Source: Oceanibaculum indicum P24 (GTDB lineage Bacteria; Pseudomonadota; Alphaproteobacteria; Oceanibaculales; Oceanibaculaceae). Taken from it: a stretch of 64,000 bases of DNA. The stretch lies in the NCBI RefSeq assembly GCF_000299935.1, contig NZ_AMRL01000002.1, forward strand, positions 124,001 to 188,000. The letters run 5' to 3'. Below, in pieces: positions 25,387 through 57,432 of the stretch. Below the pieces are notes generated by a model, which saw only the letters and a list, made by a program, of their open reading frames with translations, was not told the DNA's origin and made no database searches. The first letter of the stretch is position 1. Each line of letters opens with the position of its first letter. A program made the translations under genes and the position numbers.

Positions 25387-26124
25387 TCAGGCGGCCTCCT
25401 TCCCATCGAGAACGGCAATCGCCTGCGCCAGGTCAATACGCCCGTCATAGAGCGCGCGACCGCTGATCACGCCTTCGATACCGGAGTCGGCGACCGCCAT
25501 CAGCCCGCGCAGATCGTCCAACGAGGCGACCCCGCCCGAGGCGATGACCGGAATCGAAATGGCGCGGGCGAGATCGGCAGTCGCCTGCACATTCACGCCG
25601 GTCAAGGCACCGTCACGGTCGATATCGGTATAGATGATGGCGGCAACGCCGGCATCCTCGAAGCGGCGCGCAAGGTCCAGCGCGCTGACATCCGACGTCT
25701 CGGCCCAGCCTTCCACCGCCACCATGCCGCCGCGGGCGTCGATGCCGACCGCAATCTTGCCCGGATGCGCCTTGCAGGCCGCGATGACCAGCTGCGGGTC
25801 ACGCAGCGCCGCCGTGCCCAGGATGACGCGGGAGATTCCGGCCTCCAGCCAGCGCTCGATGCCGGCATGGTCACGGATGCCGCCGCCAAGCTGCACCGGC
25901 ACGGTGACGGCGCCGAGGATGGAGCGCACCGCCGCCTCGTTCACCGCCTTGCCGGCGAAGGCGCCATCGAGATCGACCACATGCAGCCAGCGGCAGCCGG
26001 CGGCCTGGAACTTCGCGGCCTGCGCGCCTGGGTTGTCGCTGAACACGGTGGCCTTGTCCATCTCGCCATGCAGCAGGCGGACGCACTGGCCGCCCTTCAG
26101 ATCGATGGCGGGGTAGAGGATCAT
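25387..26124 (-). CDS. hisA: ProFAR isomerase
   Basis: A 245-residue barrel homologous to His[16 protein letters not shown] at the N-terminus and [14 protein letters not shown] carry the catalytic Asp pair; [17 protein letters not shown] and [13 protein letters not shown] bind phosphate. It isomerises ProFAR to PRFAR. Its start overlaps the GNAT gene stop (ATGA). Confidence 0.97.
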
Positions 26125-47453: not shown

Positions 47454-47939
47454 TTAGGCAGCCCGCTCGACCTTGCGGGCGGCGGTGAGGTAATCGGTTT
47501 CGGGATGGGCCTCCATGAAGGCCAGCGCCTTGTTGTGGACGGCGAGCCGCGCCGGATCGACGGGAACGCCAGCCGGACCGGAGAAGCCAGCCGCCGAGGC
47601 GCCCGGCTCTTCGCCATTCGCGCGCTCGCCGAAATCGACCGACTTCGGCAGGGCGGCCAGCAGCTTGCGGAACGCCGCCTGGGCGGTGCCCTCGAACCTG
47701 GCATCGCCCTCGCCGAAGCTGACCGCCTGGTCGCCGTCCAGCTGCTCCATCAGGTCAAGCGTCAGGCCGGCCAGCCCCTGCGGCAGCTGCGCAGATGCCA
47801 CCAGGCCGTCGACGAAGCTCTTGTTGCCCTCGCGGCGGCTGGTCTTCAGCGCCTCGGCCGTTGCCTTCTCGCGCTCGGCGAACGCCGCCTCCTTTTCCGC
47901 CAGGGCGGCTTCCCGCGCGGCGATATCCTTGTCGCTCAT
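47454..47939 (-). CDS. Internal scaffold protein (gpZ-like), in-frame start
   Basis: Inside the gpI-like gene an ATG at 47939 (MSDKDIAAREAALAEKEAA) is preceded by CGGGAGACCAAGAGT, giving a 161-residue product identical to the scaffold half. In Mu, gene Z is made in the same way from inside gene I. Translation from this start is inferred. Confidence 0.6.
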   Translation of the reverse strand: MSDKDIAAREAALAEKEAAFAEREKATAEALKTSRREGNKSFVDGLVASAQLPQGLAGLTLDLMEQLDGDQAVSFGEGDARFEGTAQAAFRKLLAALPKSVDFGERANGEEPGASAAGFSGPAGVPVDPARLAVHNKALAFMEAHPETDYLTAARKVERAA

Positions 47940-48620
47940 ACTCTTGGTCTCCCGAGTGGTGGGGGTGGTGGGGTCGGCGAAAGCCGGCGACGTGCCGGGG
48001 CTGTCGATGCGGCCGGCCTGCTCGTTCAGCTCGTCGAGCCGCCAGGACGGCAGGACTTCGTCGGCGCGTTCCGCGCCCTTGTCCTCGATCAGCATGTCGC
48101 GCACGCCGCGCAGCAGGGCGGCAATGTTGCGCAGCGACCAGGCGGCGGCCCGGTCGCCGTCACCCAGATCGACGGGCGGCTCAATGTCGCCCAGCTCGAT
48201 GGTGACGGCCTGGTCGGCCTCGCCCAGCTCGATGGGCCGCAGACCCTTCACGGCTGGCGGCTGCGCACCCAGGAAGCCGACATGGCGCAGGTAGTAGCTG
48301 CCCGGCTTCGGGTTGTTCGCCGCATCGGGCGTGTAGAAGCTGGCGCTGATCTTCTTGAACTTGCCGGCCTTGACCATCTCGGCCAGCTCGACCGACACCT
48401 GGCGCGGCTCGGCGTACAGGCCGGCCTTGTCCGCCTTCAGCTCGCCGACCCAGCCATAGGCCGGAGCATCATGCTTCGGATGACCAATGACCAGCGGGGC
48501 TTCATGCACCGCCGGGTCATAGGCGGCGGCGATGCCGGCAATGACCGCTTCGCCAAAGGCGATGGTCGCGCCGCTCATGGCGGTGTGGGTGCCGGCCTGG
48601 AAGATGTGGATGCGCTTCAA
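47454..48620 (-). CDS. Mu gpI-like prohead protease/scaffold
   Basis: A 388-residue protein. The TTG at 48620 (LKRIHIFQAGTHTAMSG) matches the family N-terminus and has GAGG 8 bp upstream; a longer ORF to 48728 would place the start inside a palindromic promoter element, so I reject it. N-terminal protease domain to about residue 160 (HEAPLVIGHPKHDAPAYGWV, FKKISASFYTPD); C-terminal helical scaffold (SDKDIAAREAALAEKEAAFA). It should shape and mature the prohead. Confidence 0.82.
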   Translation of the reverse strand: MKRIHIFQAGTHTAMSGATIAFGEAVIAGIAAAYDPAVHEAPLVIGHPKHDAPAYGWVGELKADKAGLYAEPRQVSVELAEMVKAGKFKKISASFYTPDAANNPKPGSYYLRHVGFLGAQPPAVKGLRPIELGEADQAVTIELGDIEPPVDLGDGDRAAAWSLRNIAALLRGVRDMLIEDKGAERADEVLPSWRLDELNEQAGRIDSPGTSPAFADPTTPTTRETKSMSDKDIAAREAALAEKEAAFAEREKATAEALKTSRREGNKSFVDGLVASAQLPQGLAGLTLDLMEQLDGDQAVSFGEGDARFEGTAQAAFRKLLAALPKSVDFGERANGEEPGASAAGFSGPAGVPVDPARLAVHNKALAFMEAHPETDYLTAARKVERAA

Positions 48621-48710
48621 CGCCGCCTCGCTCTGCTCGAACAGGGCCGCGTAATGCCGGCCCGCTGCATCTGTGAAGCTGCAGAATGAAGGGCGAGGAT
48701 GCGCAAAACA

Positions 48711-48731
48711 GGGGTGACAGCCTGTCACCCC
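48711..48731. promoter_or_regulatory. Palindromic late-activator site 1 (PI position)
   Basis: GGGGTGACAG-C-CTGTCACCCC is a perfect 10-bp inverted repeat with one central base, centred 101 bp before the gpI-like start. With the flanking CAAAACA it is nearly identical to site 2 at 56296. TTCATT (minus strand, 48685-48690) lies where a -10 box would be if the activator binds near -40. Confidence 0.65.
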
Positions 48732-48894
48732 TCGGGATGGTCGTGTGATCGGGATTGCATCGGCCGGAAAGCCGGACCTGGTCCGGTGGCGGATGTGGGC
48801 ACAGCATGCCGCGATGCTAGCGCGCTGTCACCCCCCCTGTCGGATGGGCAGCGCGAAGCATGCGCTAATCGCTCAGAGCGCGTTCAAATTGCCG

Positions 48895-48924
48895 TTTAAA
48901 AGAATCGCACGCCCGAAGGGGCGT
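48895..48924 (-). terminator. Rho-independent terminator after the gpF-like gene
   Basis: On the minus strand ACGCCC-CTTC-GGGCGT (48924 to 48909) is followed by GCGATTCTTTT. It would end the transcript of lysis, packaging and gpF-like genes just before the gpI promoter region. A second hairpin (GCCCG-TCAG-CGGGC type, about 48938-48951) precedes it. Confidence 0.75.
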
Positions 48925-49099: not shown

Positions 49100-50332
49100 T
49101 CACTCCCGATAGATCAACAGCCCCTTGCGGATGTTGCCGAGCGCGCGCGCCGAACCGCGAAAGAAAGTCATCGCCTGCCACAGGCCGCCTTCGGCATCGG
49201 CGACGAGGGCGACGGCGCGGTCCTTGTCCAGCGCCACCATCCGAACATAGCGGCGGCGCAGCCCAACCCTGCCAGATGCCGTGGACCTGGCGAAGCCGAC
49301 CCAGATTTCCTGGGGCGCGGTCAGCAGCTCCGGGATCAGCGGCCAATAGGTTTCACGGCCGTCCCAGCGCTTACTGTCGGCGACAATATGATCGGCAACG
49401 GCCTGGGTGACGGCGACAGCAGCGCCGGACGGATCGGCGAATATCCGCTCGTCACCGCCGATGGACCGACGCAGAAGCGTCCTCAGAGCGACCTCGTCGC
49501 CCTGGCGCACACGCGGGGCAAGCTGCGCGCGCGGCGCGGTGGCAGACAGCGGGTCGAGACTGTAGGAGGGCGCGCCCGGCGCCACCAGCTCATCCCAGCC
49601 GCCATGGCGTTCCATGGCCACCGATTGCGCACCGCGCCCCCAGGCCGCCTGGCCGGGATTGTAGGCGAAGCCGGGATCGACGCCTTTTGGAACCGTGACG
49701 GTGACCTGGCCGTCAGGCGTGTTGATCTGCCGCGCCTCTTCCTCGATCTCCGGCGCGGTGCCGACCTCATAGCCATAGCGCTCCAGGTCGCGGGCGTTCA
49801 GGCTCTGCACCGTGCAGCGGCAATTCCAGCCGTTCGGCGGGTACATGCGCTCCCAGAAAGGGTCATCCGCCGGCAGCACCAGCCCGTGCAGTGCCATATG
49901 CTCCGGCCGGGTGCGGCTGTCCTTCACCGCCAGGTAACGCAGATAGGGGCGGGTGCGCTTGTTCTCCTGGACCTGTTTCCAGCGGCCGGCGGCATAGGCC
50001 ATCCGCATGTTGGTCTGGAAGATGACGCGGCTGCGCCAGCCCCGGCTGCCATTGTAGCTCCAGCCATGGGCGGCAACGATCCGGTCGAAATCCTCCCGGA
50101 ACTGCTGAAGGGTCCGCCCTTCGGCAGTGGCGCGGGTGACCGCCTGGTGGAAGTCAGCGAGCAGCGCATCGGTCTGCGCGCCGGCAACGACGAAGCCCCG
50201 CGCATGCTGCCCTTCCCACAGATCGGTCCAGGCGCGCGTCGGCAGGCGCACCTTGCCGCGCAGATAGTCGATGGCCTCGGTGAAGTGGACCGGCGCGGCC
50301 GGGGCCGCCGGCAAGCCCTCGCCGATGGTCAT
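49100..50332 (-). CDS. Mu gpF-like minor head protein with C-terminal RNase-like domain
   Basis: A 410-residue protein whose ATG overlaps the portal stop (ATGA). The head-morphogenesis domain (about 30-230) has QTNMRMAYAAGRWKQVQENK, TRPEHMALHGLVLPADDPFW and YPPNGWNCRCTVQSLNARDL, the Mu F/SPP1 gp7 signature. The C-terminal 100 residues (HIVADSKRWDGRETYWPLIP, LLTAPQEIWVGFA, TFFRGSARALGNIRKGLLIY) resemble the PBECR (phage Barnase-EndoU-ColicinE5/D-RelE-like) nuclease domains fused to such proteins. That activity is inferred from pattern. Confidence 0.85.
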   Translation of the reverse strand: MTIGEGLPAAPAAPVHFTEAIDYLRGKVRLPTRAWTDLWEGQHARGFVVAGAQTDALLADFHQAVTRATAEGRTLQQFREDFDRIVAAHGWSYNGSRGWRSRVIFQTNMRMAYAAGRWKQVQENKRTRPYLRYLAVKDSRTRPEHMALHGLVLPADDPFWERMYPPNGWNCRCTVQSLNARDLERYGYEVGTAPEIEEEARQINTPDGQVTVTVPKGVDPGFAYNPGQAAWGRGAQSVAMERHGGWDELVAPGAPSYSLDPLSATAPRAQLAPRVRQGDEVALRTLLRRSIGGDERIFADPSGAAVAVTQAVADHIVADSKRWDGRETYWPLIPELLTAPQEIWVGFARSTASGRVGLRRRYVRMVALDKDRAVALVADAEGGLWQAMTFFRGSARALGNIRKGLLIYRE

Positions 50333-51858
50333 CAGTTGCCGTCCAGGATATCGGCCCGGCCGGACAGCTCGGCCGCCGTCAGCGCCTCGCCCATCAGCCG
50401 GGCGAACTCGGCCGACGGCAGGGACGGGTACAGCGCCAGCAGCTTTTCGCTGAACTCGGCCAGGCTGGCGGATTCGTCCAGGGCGGCCCGGATGATGTCG
50501 ACCTGGCGCGCCTGCATCCCGGCCGAGGCATCGTCCAGCTGGTCCGCCAGCTCGTCGGCCGCGTCGCGCTCCTCTTCTGCGAAGGCGGCGGGATCTGCAA
50601 CGGCCTCGGGTGCGGGCACCGCGCCCGGCTTCGGCGCTACTGGCGCGGCCTTCTTCTGCCACTCGCCGCCATAAGTCTCGTGGATGTAATCCAGCGACGG
50701 CTCGAAGCCCATCTCGCAGATCGTCTTGTCGCGCGTGGCGCGCACCGACAGATCCTCGTCGTCGGCGGAATGGCGCCAGAGGCTGGGCGGCGTGGCGCTG
50801 GGCAGGTTGATCTCGACAATCCAGCGGACCAGCTGATCGTTCAGCGCCCCGCACAGCAGATCGGCATCGGCGTCCGTCAGCTCGGCGCGCACCTCATTGT
50901 GCGTCTCGCTGGCCGCCCGGCTGCCTGTGTCGCCGATATTGGTGGACAGCGTTTCGCCCAGGACGGCTTCCGAGATCTGTTCGTCGCACCAGCGCGCCAG
51001 CTGCTCATAGGTGTTGACCGTGCCGGAGCGCTGGGCTTCCAGGAAACGGATCTCCATCCCTTCCGGTATGACGACGCCGGTGTCCTGGGCAAGAGCGCGC
51101 AGCGCCTCCAACAGCTTCAGCTGCTCTTCGTCGGTGGCGCCGGCCGGATAGGTGCCGACGCTGGTCGGCGCACCGAACTTGTCCGCGAAGGTCAGCCAAT
51201 AGCCCACACCCTTGCGCTTGAAGAACACCGGCCAGAACAGCGCATTGCCAAGGCCGAGGCCATAAGGGTCTTCAGTCTCCTCCTCGCCGTCGCGGGTCAC
51301 CACGAACTTGCGCGGCGGCAGCTCCTCGCCCTGCAGCATGTTCGACCAGGTCAGCAGGCGCAGATCGCCGGCAGGGCCGAAGACGAAACGGCTGGCGTTC
51401 TTCGGCTTCACCGCCTGCGGCAGCACCCAGGTCCGCCCCTCAATGGTGACCGGCGCCCAGATCACCTCCGCCACGGCATAGCCGTCGCGGATCGCCTGCA
51501 GCAGCCCCTTGCACGTCTTGTCGAACGGGAAGCGCAGCAGCGCGGCGCGCACCAGCTCGGCCGCCGCCTCATCCTCCGGCCTGTCACTGGCCGGCTCCAC
51601 CGTCCATTCGCGGGCGATGACGGCCAGGATGCGCTTGCGCATCACCGCCTTCACATGCGGGTCGCGCATCAGGTCGCGATAGATCGCCAGCCCGCGGCCG
51701 CGCCCCCGGCTGACCAGCACGTCGTCGCGCGGCTGCATTACATAGCCGTTAAGGGGGGCTGTCACATCGTTGTAAACGGTGGCGATCTCGCGCCGGTCCG
51801 GCGGCATGACGACCACCTTACCGGCCTGTTTCTGCCTGGGCTGTCGCGCCATCACCAT
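50332..51858 (-). CDS. Portal protein (Mu gp29-like, DUF935)
   Basis: A 508-residue portal. DVLVSRGRGRGLAIYRDLMR, DPHVKAVMRKRILAVIAREW, DGYAVAEVIWAPV, FADKFGAPTSVGTYPAGATD and LGETLSTNIGDTGSRAASET are DUF935 signatures. It forms the dodecameric DNA channel at one capsid vertex. Its start overlaps the terminase end by 7 bp. Confidence 0.93.
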   Translation of the reverse strand: MVMARQPRQKQAGKVVVMPPDRREIATVYNDVTAPLNGYVMQPRDDVLVSRGRGRGLAIYRDLMRDPHVKAVMRKRILAVIAREWTVEPASDRPEDEAAAELVRAALLRFPFDKTCKGLLQAIRDGYAVAEVIWAPVTIEGRTWVLPQAVKPKNASRFVFGPAGDLRLLTWSNMLQGEELPPRKFVVTRDGEEETEDPYGLGLGNALFWPVFFKRKGVGYWLTFADKFGAPTSVGTYPAGATDEEQLKLLEALRALAQDTGVVIPEGMEIRFLEAQRSGTVNTYEQLARWCDEQISEAVLGETLSTNIGDTGSRAASETHNEVRAELTDADADLLCGALNDQLVRWIVEINLPSATPPSLWRHSADDEDLSVRATRDKTICEMGFEPSLDYIHETYGGEWQKKAAPVAPKPGAVPAPEAVADPAAFAEEERDAADELADQLDDASAGMQARQVDIIRAALDESASLAEFSEKLLALYPSLPSAEFARLMGEALTAAELSGRADILDGN

Positions 51859-54769: not shown

Positions 54770-54989
54770 CCGCGTCCTCGCCGCCCTCGTCTGCGCCACC
54801 CGCGCCGTGCAGCCTGGCGCGCAGCTCGGCCGTGATCGCATTGATCTCCGCCCATTCGGCATCGGTGGGGTTGCGGCCTTCGGCGACCATCTGCTCGATG
54901 GCGGCCTTGGCGCGCAGGGCGGCCGGGATGCCGGCGCTGATCGCATTGGCGATCTGGATGCCGAGCAGCAGCAGCTGCGCGGCGTTCAT
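54762..54989 (-). CDS. Small phage protein, unknown
   Basis: A 75-residue protein with a hydrophobic N-terminal helix (AAQLLLLGIQIANAISAGIP), an amphipathic middle (DAEWAEINAITAELRARLHG) and an acidic Gly-rich tail. Between the holin-like and DksA-like genes. Could belong to the lysis set; no family recognised. Confidence 0.6.
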   Translation of the reverse strand: MNAAQLLLLGIQIANAISAGIPAALRAKAAIEQMVAEGRNPTDAEWAEINAITAELRARLHGAGGADEGGEDADG

Positions 54990-55678
54990 GTCGGGCCTCC
55001 CAGCGCGGTAAGCTTGGTCCTCTGCAGATAGGCGGACAGCTCGTCGATAGCCGCTCGGGCCAAGGCGATGGCTGCCCCCTTGGTCGCGGAGCCGCCGTGC
55101 CGCGCCTCGTACTGCGCGCGGGCCAGCGCGCTCCAGGCCAGCCGCTCCAGGCGGATGATGTTCGCCGTGACATCGGGAACGGCCAGATCGGATTCGACAT
55201 AGGTTACGGCGGCCAGCAGAGCGGCGTTGTAGTCCGCCTGCAGAGCGTACACCGTCTGCTCGGCCGTGATCTGATGCGAGGCCTGTGCCTTGTCCGCCTG
55301 CACCAGGCTAATCGTGCCGCAGGCCGATGGCCCGGCAAAGGCAAGTCCGCCGACTAGCAGAAAGGCAGCCAGCAGCTTCGTTGCCGAGCCACCGCCGCGT
55401 GCAGCGGTCTCGGGGTCGAGCGGCAGCTTGCCGGCGATCTCCTCGGCGAACTGCTGCTTCAGCGTATCGTCAACGCGACGCACCACGTCAGCGACGCTAG
55501 GCGGCACGGCGTAGAACACCAGCGCCATCACGCCGCCGGACAAGGCGGCCGCCGTCTCGGCCGGCAGCTCGACGCCGGCAGCGGCAGCGATCAGGATCAG
55601 CAGCCAGGTCACGACGCCGGCAACGCCGGCAGCGAGGAACTTGCGGTCGGGAATCCAGGTCTTTTTCAGCGCGGACAT
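54986..55678 (-). CDS. Membrane protein of the lysis region (holin- or spanin-like)
   Basis: A 230-residue protein with two early transmembrane segments (FLAAGVAGVVTWLLILIAAA and AAALSGGVMALVFYAV) typical of small phage holins, a short cytoplasmic linker, and then a third segment (TKLLAAFLLVGGLAFAGPSA) that ends in SACG like a lipobox, followed by a helical domain. It looks like a holin fused to a spanin or lipoprotein-like part. It directly follows the lysozyme-like gene. Confidence 0.6.
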   Translation of the reverse strand: MSALKKTWIPDRKFLAAGVAGVVTWLLILIAAAAGVELPAETAAALSGGVMALVFYAVPPSVADVVRRVDDTLKQQFAEEIAGKLPLDPETAARGGGSATKLLAAFLLVGGLAFAGPSACGTISLVQADKAQASHQITAEQTVYALQADYNAALLAAVTYVESDLAVPDVTANIIRLERLAWSALARAQYEARHGGSATKGAAIALARAAIDELSAYLQRTKLTALGGPT

Positions 55679-55689
55679 GATGCCCTCCT

Positions 55690-56175
55690 TCACAGCTTCG
55701 GCTGGATAAGCCGGCGATAGGCTTCGATGAACTTGGCCGGCTCTCCGGCCCCGAGAGACGTGTTGAAAACCTGCTTCCACATCCCCGCCATGCCTTCGAT
55801 GTCGTCGGCTGCGGGCAGCTTCAGCGGGCTGCGCCAATAGACCAGGCGCGCGATGGCCGTGGCGTAGGCCAGGTTGCTGGCCAGCTGCTGCGCCTCGACA
55901 GGATGGGCCGCCGCCAGCTCCATCACCCTGGAGCGCAGTGGCAACCGGTACCGCAGAAAGCTGTTGTGAATGTCTTCGGCAGTGGCCGGTTCAATCTGGT
56001 AGATGCCCTGCGCCGGCCCTGTCGGCACCTGGGCCAGATAGTGCAGCTCGCTCTCGACGGCGGCAGTGCCCAGCAGCAGCCGGACGGCCGCCTCGGACGC
56101 GAAGCCCGGCAGGCCGTCGCCGACATAGGCCAGCGTCGGCCGGATGATTTGGTTTGCCAGCTGCCGGACGTCCAT
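55690..56175 (-). CDS. Lysozyme/transglycosylase-like endolysin
   Basis: A 161-residue protein starting at 56175. RLLLGTAAVESELHYLAQVP supplies a catalytic-type Glu and PAQGIYQIEPATAEDIHNSF the second loop, in the spacing used by lytic transglycosylases. No signal peptide is seen, so export would depend on the adjacent holin-like protein. It is the first gene after the activator and its promoter site, as lys is in Mu. Confidence 0.7.
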   Translation of the reverse strand: MDVRQLANQIIRPTLAYVGDGLPGFASEAAVRLLLGTAAVESELHYLAQVPTGPAQGIYQIEPATAEDIHNSFLRYRLPLRSRVMELAAAHPVEAQQLASNLAYATAIARLVYWRSPLKLPAADDIEGMAGMWKQVFNTSLGAGEPAKFIEAYRRLIQPKL

Positions 56176-56295
56176 TTGCCTGCTCGCCTCGTTGCGGGTT
56201 GAGCGAGGTCCGGGCAGGACGTGTGCTTGACGCATACGCTGGAGATGCCCGGCCTCGCTCAGCCGTCACGATGCGCGCGGCGGAACATCAAAACA

Positions 56296-56314
56296 GGGGT
56301 GACAGACTGTCACC
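56296..56314. promoter_or_regulatory. Palindromic late-activator site 2 (Plys position)
   Basis: GGGGTGACAG-A-CTGTCACC (56296-56314) repeats site 1 except for the central base and the last two bases of one arm, and shares the flank CAAAACA. It overlaps the last codon and stop of the activator gene and is centred 131 bp before the endolysin start, the place of Mu Plys. Confidence 0.65.
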
Positions 56315-56726
56315 GGTTGCCGGATGGGAGGTCAGGAAACAGAGGCAGCGGGCGCGGCTCTTCGCGGTCGGATGCGCGATACCGGCGCACCGTGCGGATG
56401 GTGATGCCCTCCGCGCGGGCGATCTCCGAGGCGCTGGCCGGGGCACTGGCGACACGCTCCCGGAAGGCCCGCCGCTGCTGGCGCAACGAGCTGTAGGGGC
56501 CGATGGGCACGTCCATCTCGTCGTCAGGATACTTGGCGCATAGATACAGGGCCAGAGGCTCGCCGCCAACCTTTCGCACGAAGGCCGGTGTCGGCGACTT
56601 CGGAATCGACAGCCTGGTGCCGCCCAGCTCACGCGCAAAGCCCAGCGCCACGCCGACGCTGAGCTGGCGCGCGATCTCAGCCAGGACCGGCGGCAGGCTG
56701 GCGATGGTGGCCGCGTCGTCAGCCAT
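56310..56726 (-). CDS. Mor/C family transcription activator
   Basis: A 138-residue regulator. The dimerisation part SLPPVLAEIARQLSVGVALG, FARELGGTRLSIPKSPTP and the basic C-terminal HTH (SSLRQQRRAFRERVASAPAS, ASEIARAEGITIRTVRRYRA) match Mu Mor and C. It should switch on late transcription. Only one such gene is present, unlike Mu which has two. It overlaps gemA, and its own end overlaps palindrome site 2. Confidence 0.9.
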   Translation of the reverse strand: MADDAATIASLPPVLAEIARQLSVGVALGFARELGGTRLSIPKSPTPAFVRKVGGEPLALYLCAKYPDDEMDVPIGPYSSLRQQRRAFRERVASAPASASEIARAEGITIRTVRRYRASDREEPRPLPLFPDLPSGNR

Positions 56727-57432
56727 CGGCATCCTTCCGGCCGGCCTGCGCTTTGGCCAGCGCCTTGCGGATGAAGCGGCCATAGACCGCGATCACCGAA
56801 TCCCAGTCCTTCGTGGAATAGAACTGCGGTGCGGCCGGCGCGGCGCGCATGCGGTAGGCCATGTCCCACCAGCCGATATGGGGCTGGGCGATGGCGTCGA
56901 GATCCAGCAGCCGGCGCCATTGCGCCTCGACGACAGCCTGCCGGTCGCTGATCGGCGGTTGGCTGGACCAGGACACACCACCGCCGCCCTTGCCTGCGGG
57001 CCGGGCAAGCCAGCCCTTCAGCGCCTCGATAACGCCAGCGGCCTTGTCGGCTGGCAACCATTCCAGCGCGTCCACCTTGGCCTGGCGCTTCACGAAGGCC
57101 GCCAGTGCCTCTTCCGACGAATCGGCGATGCAGCCCAGGTGCCAGAGCGCAAGCCAGAGTGCGCGGATTTTCTGCGCCTGATCGCTATCCGCCAGCTTGC
57201 GGGTACGCCCCTTGAAGGCGCGCTTCGGCGGTGTCTTGCGGGCGCCCTGGCGGTGCAGCTCGTCGATGACCTTGCCCAGCTGCGGCCCGGTCATGGTGCG
57301 CAGGCTGTCCTTACCCGTCACGCGCACCAGGAGGGCGCGCCAGGCGGTGTCATCGGCCAGACCGGCAATCTGCTTTCTGCTGGCGTGGATTGCCCCAAAG
57401 GTCTTCGGATTGATCTTGCTGGCGGCGGTCAT
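56719..57432 (-). CDS. GemA-like regulatory protein (Mu gp16, DUF1018)
   Basis: A 237-residue protein: FGAIHASRKQIAGLADDTAW, RALLVRVTGKDSLRTMTGPQ, LGKVIDELHRQG and IRALWLALWHLGCIAD are the DUF1018 signature; a longer than usual C-terminal part follows. Mu GemA alters host gene expression and DNA topology. It comes just before the activator gene, as in Mu. Confidence 0.88.
   Translation of the reverse strand: MTAASKINPKTFGAIHASRKQIAGLADDTAWRALLVRVTGKDSLRTMTGPQLGKVIDELHRQGARKTPPKRAFKGRTRKLADSDQAQKIRALWLALWHLGCIADSSEEALAAFVKRQAKVDALEWLPADKAAGVIEALKGWLARPAGKGGGGVSWSSQPPISDRQAVVEAQWRRLLDLDAIAQPHIGWWDMAYRMRAAPAAPQFYSTKDWDSVIAVYGRFIRKALAKAQAGRKDADG

Follow-up and report, generated by a model that had tools for sequence, protein, structure and literature searches.

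A prophage on the minus strand of the 64,000-nucleotide stretch analysed here (the window) carries a perfect palindrome and, several kilobases away, a nearly identical second copy. Because the prophage is read from the minus strand, the first copy lies upstream of the gpI-like gene, at the position of the late promoter PI of phage Mu, and the second lies between a putative activator gene and the lysis genes, at the position of Plys. The question raised by this locus is what reads the pair. The sequence-only reading proposed that it is the binding site of a Mor/C-like activator, and three lines of evidence, namely twin palindromes in relatives, a fixed distance to a -10-type element, and covariation with the recognition helix of the activator, support this proposal. 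It is very likely that the palindrome is the operator of the prophage's single Mor/C-family late activator, whose gene lies shortly ahead of the lysis genes. The features concerned are collected in Table 1.

Table 1. Features around the two palindromes, in window coordinates.
Feature	Position	Strand	Remarks
PI operator (predicted)	48710..48732, centre 48721	minus	perfect 11+1+11 dyad AGGGGTGACAG-G-CTGTCACCCCT
Plys operator (predicted)	56298..56314, centre 56306	minus	8+1+8 dyad GGTGACAG-T-CTGTCACC
Predicted -10 of PI, CATTCT	48683..48688	minus	inferred from the fixed-offset peak
Predicted -10 of Plys, CATCGT	56268..56273	minus	offset as for PI
gpI-like head maturation protease	47454..48620	minus	phrog_976, E=1e-113; start inferred
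Late activator, Mor/C family	56310..56726	minus	phrog_836; 138 aa, C-terminal HTH, tail PLPLF
Lysis cassette gene 1	55690..56175	minus	phrog_3108; weak SLT transglycosylase match; likely start ATG 56175
Lysis cassette gene 2	54986..55837	minus	weak holin family match
GemA-like gene, early operon	56719..57432	minus	PF06252, E=3e-36
Terminator-like hairpin upstream of PI, end of lys operon	48909..48924	minus	
Isolated half-site GGGGTGACAG	48825..48834	minus	conserved in L009

The palindrome upstream of gpI is exact and one pair per arm longer than first described, reading AGGGGTGACAG-C-CTGTCACCCCT on the forward strand; the Plys dyad reads GGTGACAG-A-CTGTCACC on that strand and shares bases with the activator's stop codon. 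The two copies have the block CAAAACAGGGGTGACAGNCTGTCACC in common (at 56289-56314 in the second copy), and CCTGTTTTG follows both dyads in the minus-strand reading. Within the window, a 21-bp pattern at up to 3 mismatches was found at these two sites only, and 100 dinucleotide-shuffled versions of the window yielded no match at the same threshold. In the 3.95-Mb genome, the 17-bp core at 0-2 mismatches was likewise confined to the PI and Plys sites, so the near-identical second block noticed earlier has no third counterpart, and the host genome does not carry the palindrome widely; at 3 mismatches, 12 places matched, near the count for a reversed control pattern. The terminator previously noted before the palindrome corresponds to the hairpin upstream of PI. 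The gap before the gpI-like gene also stands, although its reported length of 479 bp is somewhat too large, since TTG 48620 is a more probable start for gpI than ATG 48578; the upstream start is preferred because a profile match counted from residue 1 begins only at profile position 45. The first gene of the lysis cassette, similarly, probably starts at ATG 56175 rather than at 56235.

Several other elements were observed nearby. An isolated half-site stands on the upstream side of the PI dyad, some 105 bp away; GGGGTGACAGCGCGC there is identical in the close relative L009, with the next ~80 bp almost unchanged. A conserved GATTCTTTTAAACGGCAATTTGAACG at 48880-48910 (minus strand), in the gap ahead of gpI, resembles the gyrase-site region between G and I of Mu, with the counterparts TTTTAAACCGGTATTT in Mu and TTTTAAACGGC also in L055; it is possible that this region is a strong gyrase site. 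At 49100-50854 (minus strand) a MuF-type head protein carries a PBECR2 nuclease-like domain fused to its C terminus (PF18810, E=2e-25), which makes it a virion protein with a toxin-like fusion.

The proposed activator belongs by homology to the Mor/C family. It matches PHROG 836, a late transcriptional activator family, with E=9.6e-21. The window protein alone scores below the Pfam Mor cut-off; the Pfam Mor model matches 18 of its 20 aligned relatives, and the family profile matches Mu C (PDB 9l0x and 9vw8; E=5e-5) and Mor (1rr7 and 9l0y; E=1.8e-4) by sequence. A structure model (pLDDT 80.5) had Mor (1rr7) as its top Foldseek match, with E=0.3, and a VIA Z of 5.2-5.3 over the HTH only; as Foldseek gave no significant match, the fold was not used as proof. 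As expected for a Mor/C activator, its gene has GemA-type early genes on one side and lysis genes on the other; it overlaps the GemA-like gene and is followed by the lysis cassette. A protein scan of the genome_contigs collection with the window activator as sole query returned no match, and relatives of the activator were gathered by whole-genome profile searches; such a search revealed no second Mor/C homologue in this genome. With no second homologue, the cascade appears to pass from early to late without a middle step.

If the palindrome is the target of this activator, phages that keep the activator would be expected to keep the pair. In L009, an IMG/VR contig whose activator is 92% identical, both palindromes are present. 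Ahead of its gpI the palindrome is intact except for the centre base (G to C), and flanking and spacer bases have changed, while the TGTTTTG tail and CATTCT are kept. Among the distant relatives, RcapMu, RcWaterboi, RR1-B, and POA1180 have a different palindrome at both places, the pair being identical within each phage; in them, as in further prophages, a palindrome after the activator gene has a twin ahead of gpI or its operon. A search of related prophages upstream of I and lys found twins in most relatives, with each phage using a sequence of its own. When activator loci were searched systematically, about 20 prophages proved to have palindrome pairs (for example GCTGACACCTGTCAGC, CCCGACACCTGTCGGG, CCATGGTGACAGGTGTCACCATGG, and CCCCTGAACTTGTTCAGGGG). 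In an ungapped comparison of the two gaps, with significance defined as at most 2 of 200 shuffles, a shared element was significant in 32 of 40 loci; the same test found no significant one in the other 8. For most of the distant Mor-like proteins that have no gpI nearby, no palindrome pair was seen. Held-out loci from two further families contained 16 palindromes after the activator gene, 14 of them with a near-identical twin 7.2-11.2 kb downstream. A first impression that one family (f71) has no twin at gpI was ruled out by searching the whole 12 kb; its twin is 580-905 bp upstream of gpI, so one more gene seems to be part of that operon. Among open-licence papers, we found no published description of these twin sites.

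Some phages depart from the simple pair. Four copies are present in RR1-B (at lys, I, tape measure, and baseplate) and three in POA1180 (at I, tail sheath, and lys); the extra copies, at 26071 and 31108 in L037 and at 19463 in L036 (RR1-B, POA1180), precede tail or baseplate genes, are comparable to the P promoter of Mu, and fit promoters at the heads of the tail and baseplate operons. L064, L066, L112 (YPCBV-1), and L115 (3927AP2) have one element of roughly 16-27 bp in both the lys and the I gap, but it is not palindromic, so that in these phages the activator probably recognises an asymmetric site. An exact palindrome scan of viral contigs returned 11 stretches, including the window's own phage and L009; the other matches were set aside, since phrog_836 was absent or marginal in them and several had GTGACA-type repeats.

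The position of the dyads relative to a possible promoter is also conserved. When sites were aligned on the dyad centre and scored with a -10-type matrix, a single peak appeared at offset 32 (38 sites from 19 lineages), where the mean score was -1.2 compared with -5.0 elsewhere; none of 2000 shuffles reached this peak. In 26 held-out sites the best offset was again 32 (0 of 1000 shuffles). The hexamers at this offset resemble CATGGT, CATTCT, and TAATCT, with position 2 (A) and position 6 (T) being kept; individual -10 matches are weak. The fixed offset would place the dyad at -44.5 to -45, with start points predicted near 48676 for PI and 56261 for Plys. The Mor dyad of Mu is centred at -43.5 and replaces the -35 element, while a -10 is present (PMC4390567). 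The predicted geometry agrees with this hallmark of a Mor/C-dependent promoter, a dyad near -43.5 in place of the -35 element, and no sigma-70 -35/-10 pair was found on the minus strand at either site. Both sites are directly upstream of the genes expected of Plys and PI, lys and I.

A connection between the palindrome and the activator itself comes from covariation. When mutual information was calculated between activator columns and the base N of N-GA[CA], two recognition-helix positions ranked first and second, one distal column also scoring high; the set comprised 20 palindromic lineages with half-sites aligned by eye, and the statistics ignore phylogeny. At position R+3, E goes with C, and Y, H, or K goes with T; R[HW]V goes with G. 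E-type and T-type proteins stand side by side at more than one place in the tree (L070 beside L036; L049 with the window clade), which indicates that the base switch was not one event. Held-out loci such as L118, L117, L121, L135, L120, L136, L042, L047, L068, and L071 followed the rule, while L143 and L139 broke it; a simple base rule linking RT[VI]RR to T failed for these same two loci. Because phylogeny was uncorrected and the distal column scored high, the covariation supports the activator as the binding protein but does not prove it.

Alternative explanations concern mainly what the hairpin-forming potential of the palindromes means. The one that survives best extends the operator reading: each element would be both a DNA operator and an RNA terminator, so that the early transcript would end at the very element that turns late transcription on. 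T-runs in several lineages, the TGTTTTG of the window, and the position of the Plys copy at the activator stop codon are in agreement with such a double role, but the arrangement is not general, and we regard it as rather unlikely. In Mu, moreover, a stretch of six T's is found within the lys and mom promoter spacers (PMC4461284), so the T's at these sites may be a promoter feature.

That the palindromes are intrinsic terminators and nothing else, ending the early (activator) and lys-operon transcripts through RNA hairpins and T-runs, is very improbable. The hairpins do fold well, the window's own copies combine hairpin and T-run, the copy at 56298 fits the terminator pattern, and the RcapMu and RR1-B sites resemble good terminators; across the family, 13 of 32 sites have at least 4 T's in a row within the next 9 bases. 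In the remaining 19 the T-run is absent, however, so it is not kept across relatives; the PI copy is near the next gene, with a separate hairpin already upstream, and the arms reach the very centre, as in DNA dyads. Termination alone also fails to account for the identical phage-specific twins, for a -10 at a constant distance, and for the covariation with the recognition helix. Another regulator as the owner of the operator (a phage repressor, a Ner-like protein, or a host factor) is hardly credible: operators are commonly perfect palindromes, but there are no further copies elsewhere in the genome, and the sites track the recognition helix of the activator.

With the palindromes taken as operators of the late activator, the switch may work as follows. 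The activator, presumably a dimer, would bind the dyad, whose centre is some 45 bp ahead of the start point where a -35 element would otherwise be, and would help RNA polymerase to open a promoter whose -10 box is poor (CATTCT at PI, CATCGT at Plys). From the Plys copy it would switch on the lysis, terminase, and portal genes, and from the PI copy the head protease, capsid, and tail genes.

This arrangement strongly recalls the C/Plys/PI system of Mu. The gene order is the same (GemA, activator, lys, gp27-gp29, F, G, I), the activators are homologous, and in both cases the activator gene is just upstream of lys, with sites at Plys and PI. The expectation that the dyads would be as in Mu held for these positions but not for the form of the sites: the C sites of Mu match over just 10 bp between lys and I and fall short of perfect palindromes (PMC4461284), whereas those of the window are perfect dyads and do not have the sequence of Mu's shared element, the non-palindromic TCCCGCACCT. 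Mu also has P and mom sites, while here there are only two sites. The Mor/Pm system of Mu is similar in its dyad near -44, its lack of a -35 element, and its -10 (PMC4390567), but Mor acts on the middle promoter, and nothing here points to a Mor/Pm middle step. RcapMu, RR1-B, and POA1180 are further close parallels: their activators are homologous and their twin palindromes occupy the corresponding places, though the palindrome sequence differs in each. Compared with Mu, the new features are a perfect dyad that is specific to the phage and used twice, the apparent single-activator cascade, and the demonstration across the family.

The C-terminal tails of these activators suggest a further connection. 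RcapMu ends in QLPLF, RR1-B in QFDLF, L054 in QISLF, L083 in QLSLF, L059 in QIDMF, and Mu C in QPDLF, while Mu Mor ends in QPSLL; tail-bearing loci include the window activator, L034 (13577-13945), and Mu C (L108, 1464-1886). The bacterial clamp-binding motif is Q-aliphatic-x-[L/M]-[F/L], which is tolerant at position 2 and often C-terminal, and in which Q is important without being indispensable (PMC11139829). Among 34 nonredundant activators with gpI, 20 have Qxx[LM]F within their final 22 residues, compared with 6 of 34 without gpI (p=0.001), and shuffled tails gave 0.3 matches in all; by the strict motif Q[AVILM]x[LM][FL] alone, Mu-like loci could not be told apart from the others (Fisher p=0.22). 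In T4 late transcription, clamp-binding tails are found on gp33 and gp55 (PMC7892883, PMC2988020). We tentatively suggest, while considering it somewhat more doubtful than probable, that Mu C and the C-type late activators of Mu-like phages bear a C-terminal clamp-binding peptide and that the activator, when at its palindrome, would touch beta clamps remaining on phage DNA that has just been replicated, so that late promoters would fire mainly on replicating genomes. The window activator ends in PLPLF, without the Q, which makes this idea weaker for this prophage than for the family. We found no paper linking Mu C to the sliding clamp. If true, the Mu-like version would be a second and independently evolved case beside the clamp-activated late transcription of T4, and the old question of how Mu late genes are tied to replication would become directly testable in E. 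coli.

For the family as a whole, the main consequence is that each phage prints its own palindrome twice, so that operators may be assigned to many late activators from sequence alone. The matched activator-operator pairs would form a natural set for working out a recognition code and for obtaining orthogonal activator-promoter pairs. The results also suggest that Mu-like phages beyond the classical Mu model commonly use a cascade of two steps, early to late, with one Mor/C protein.
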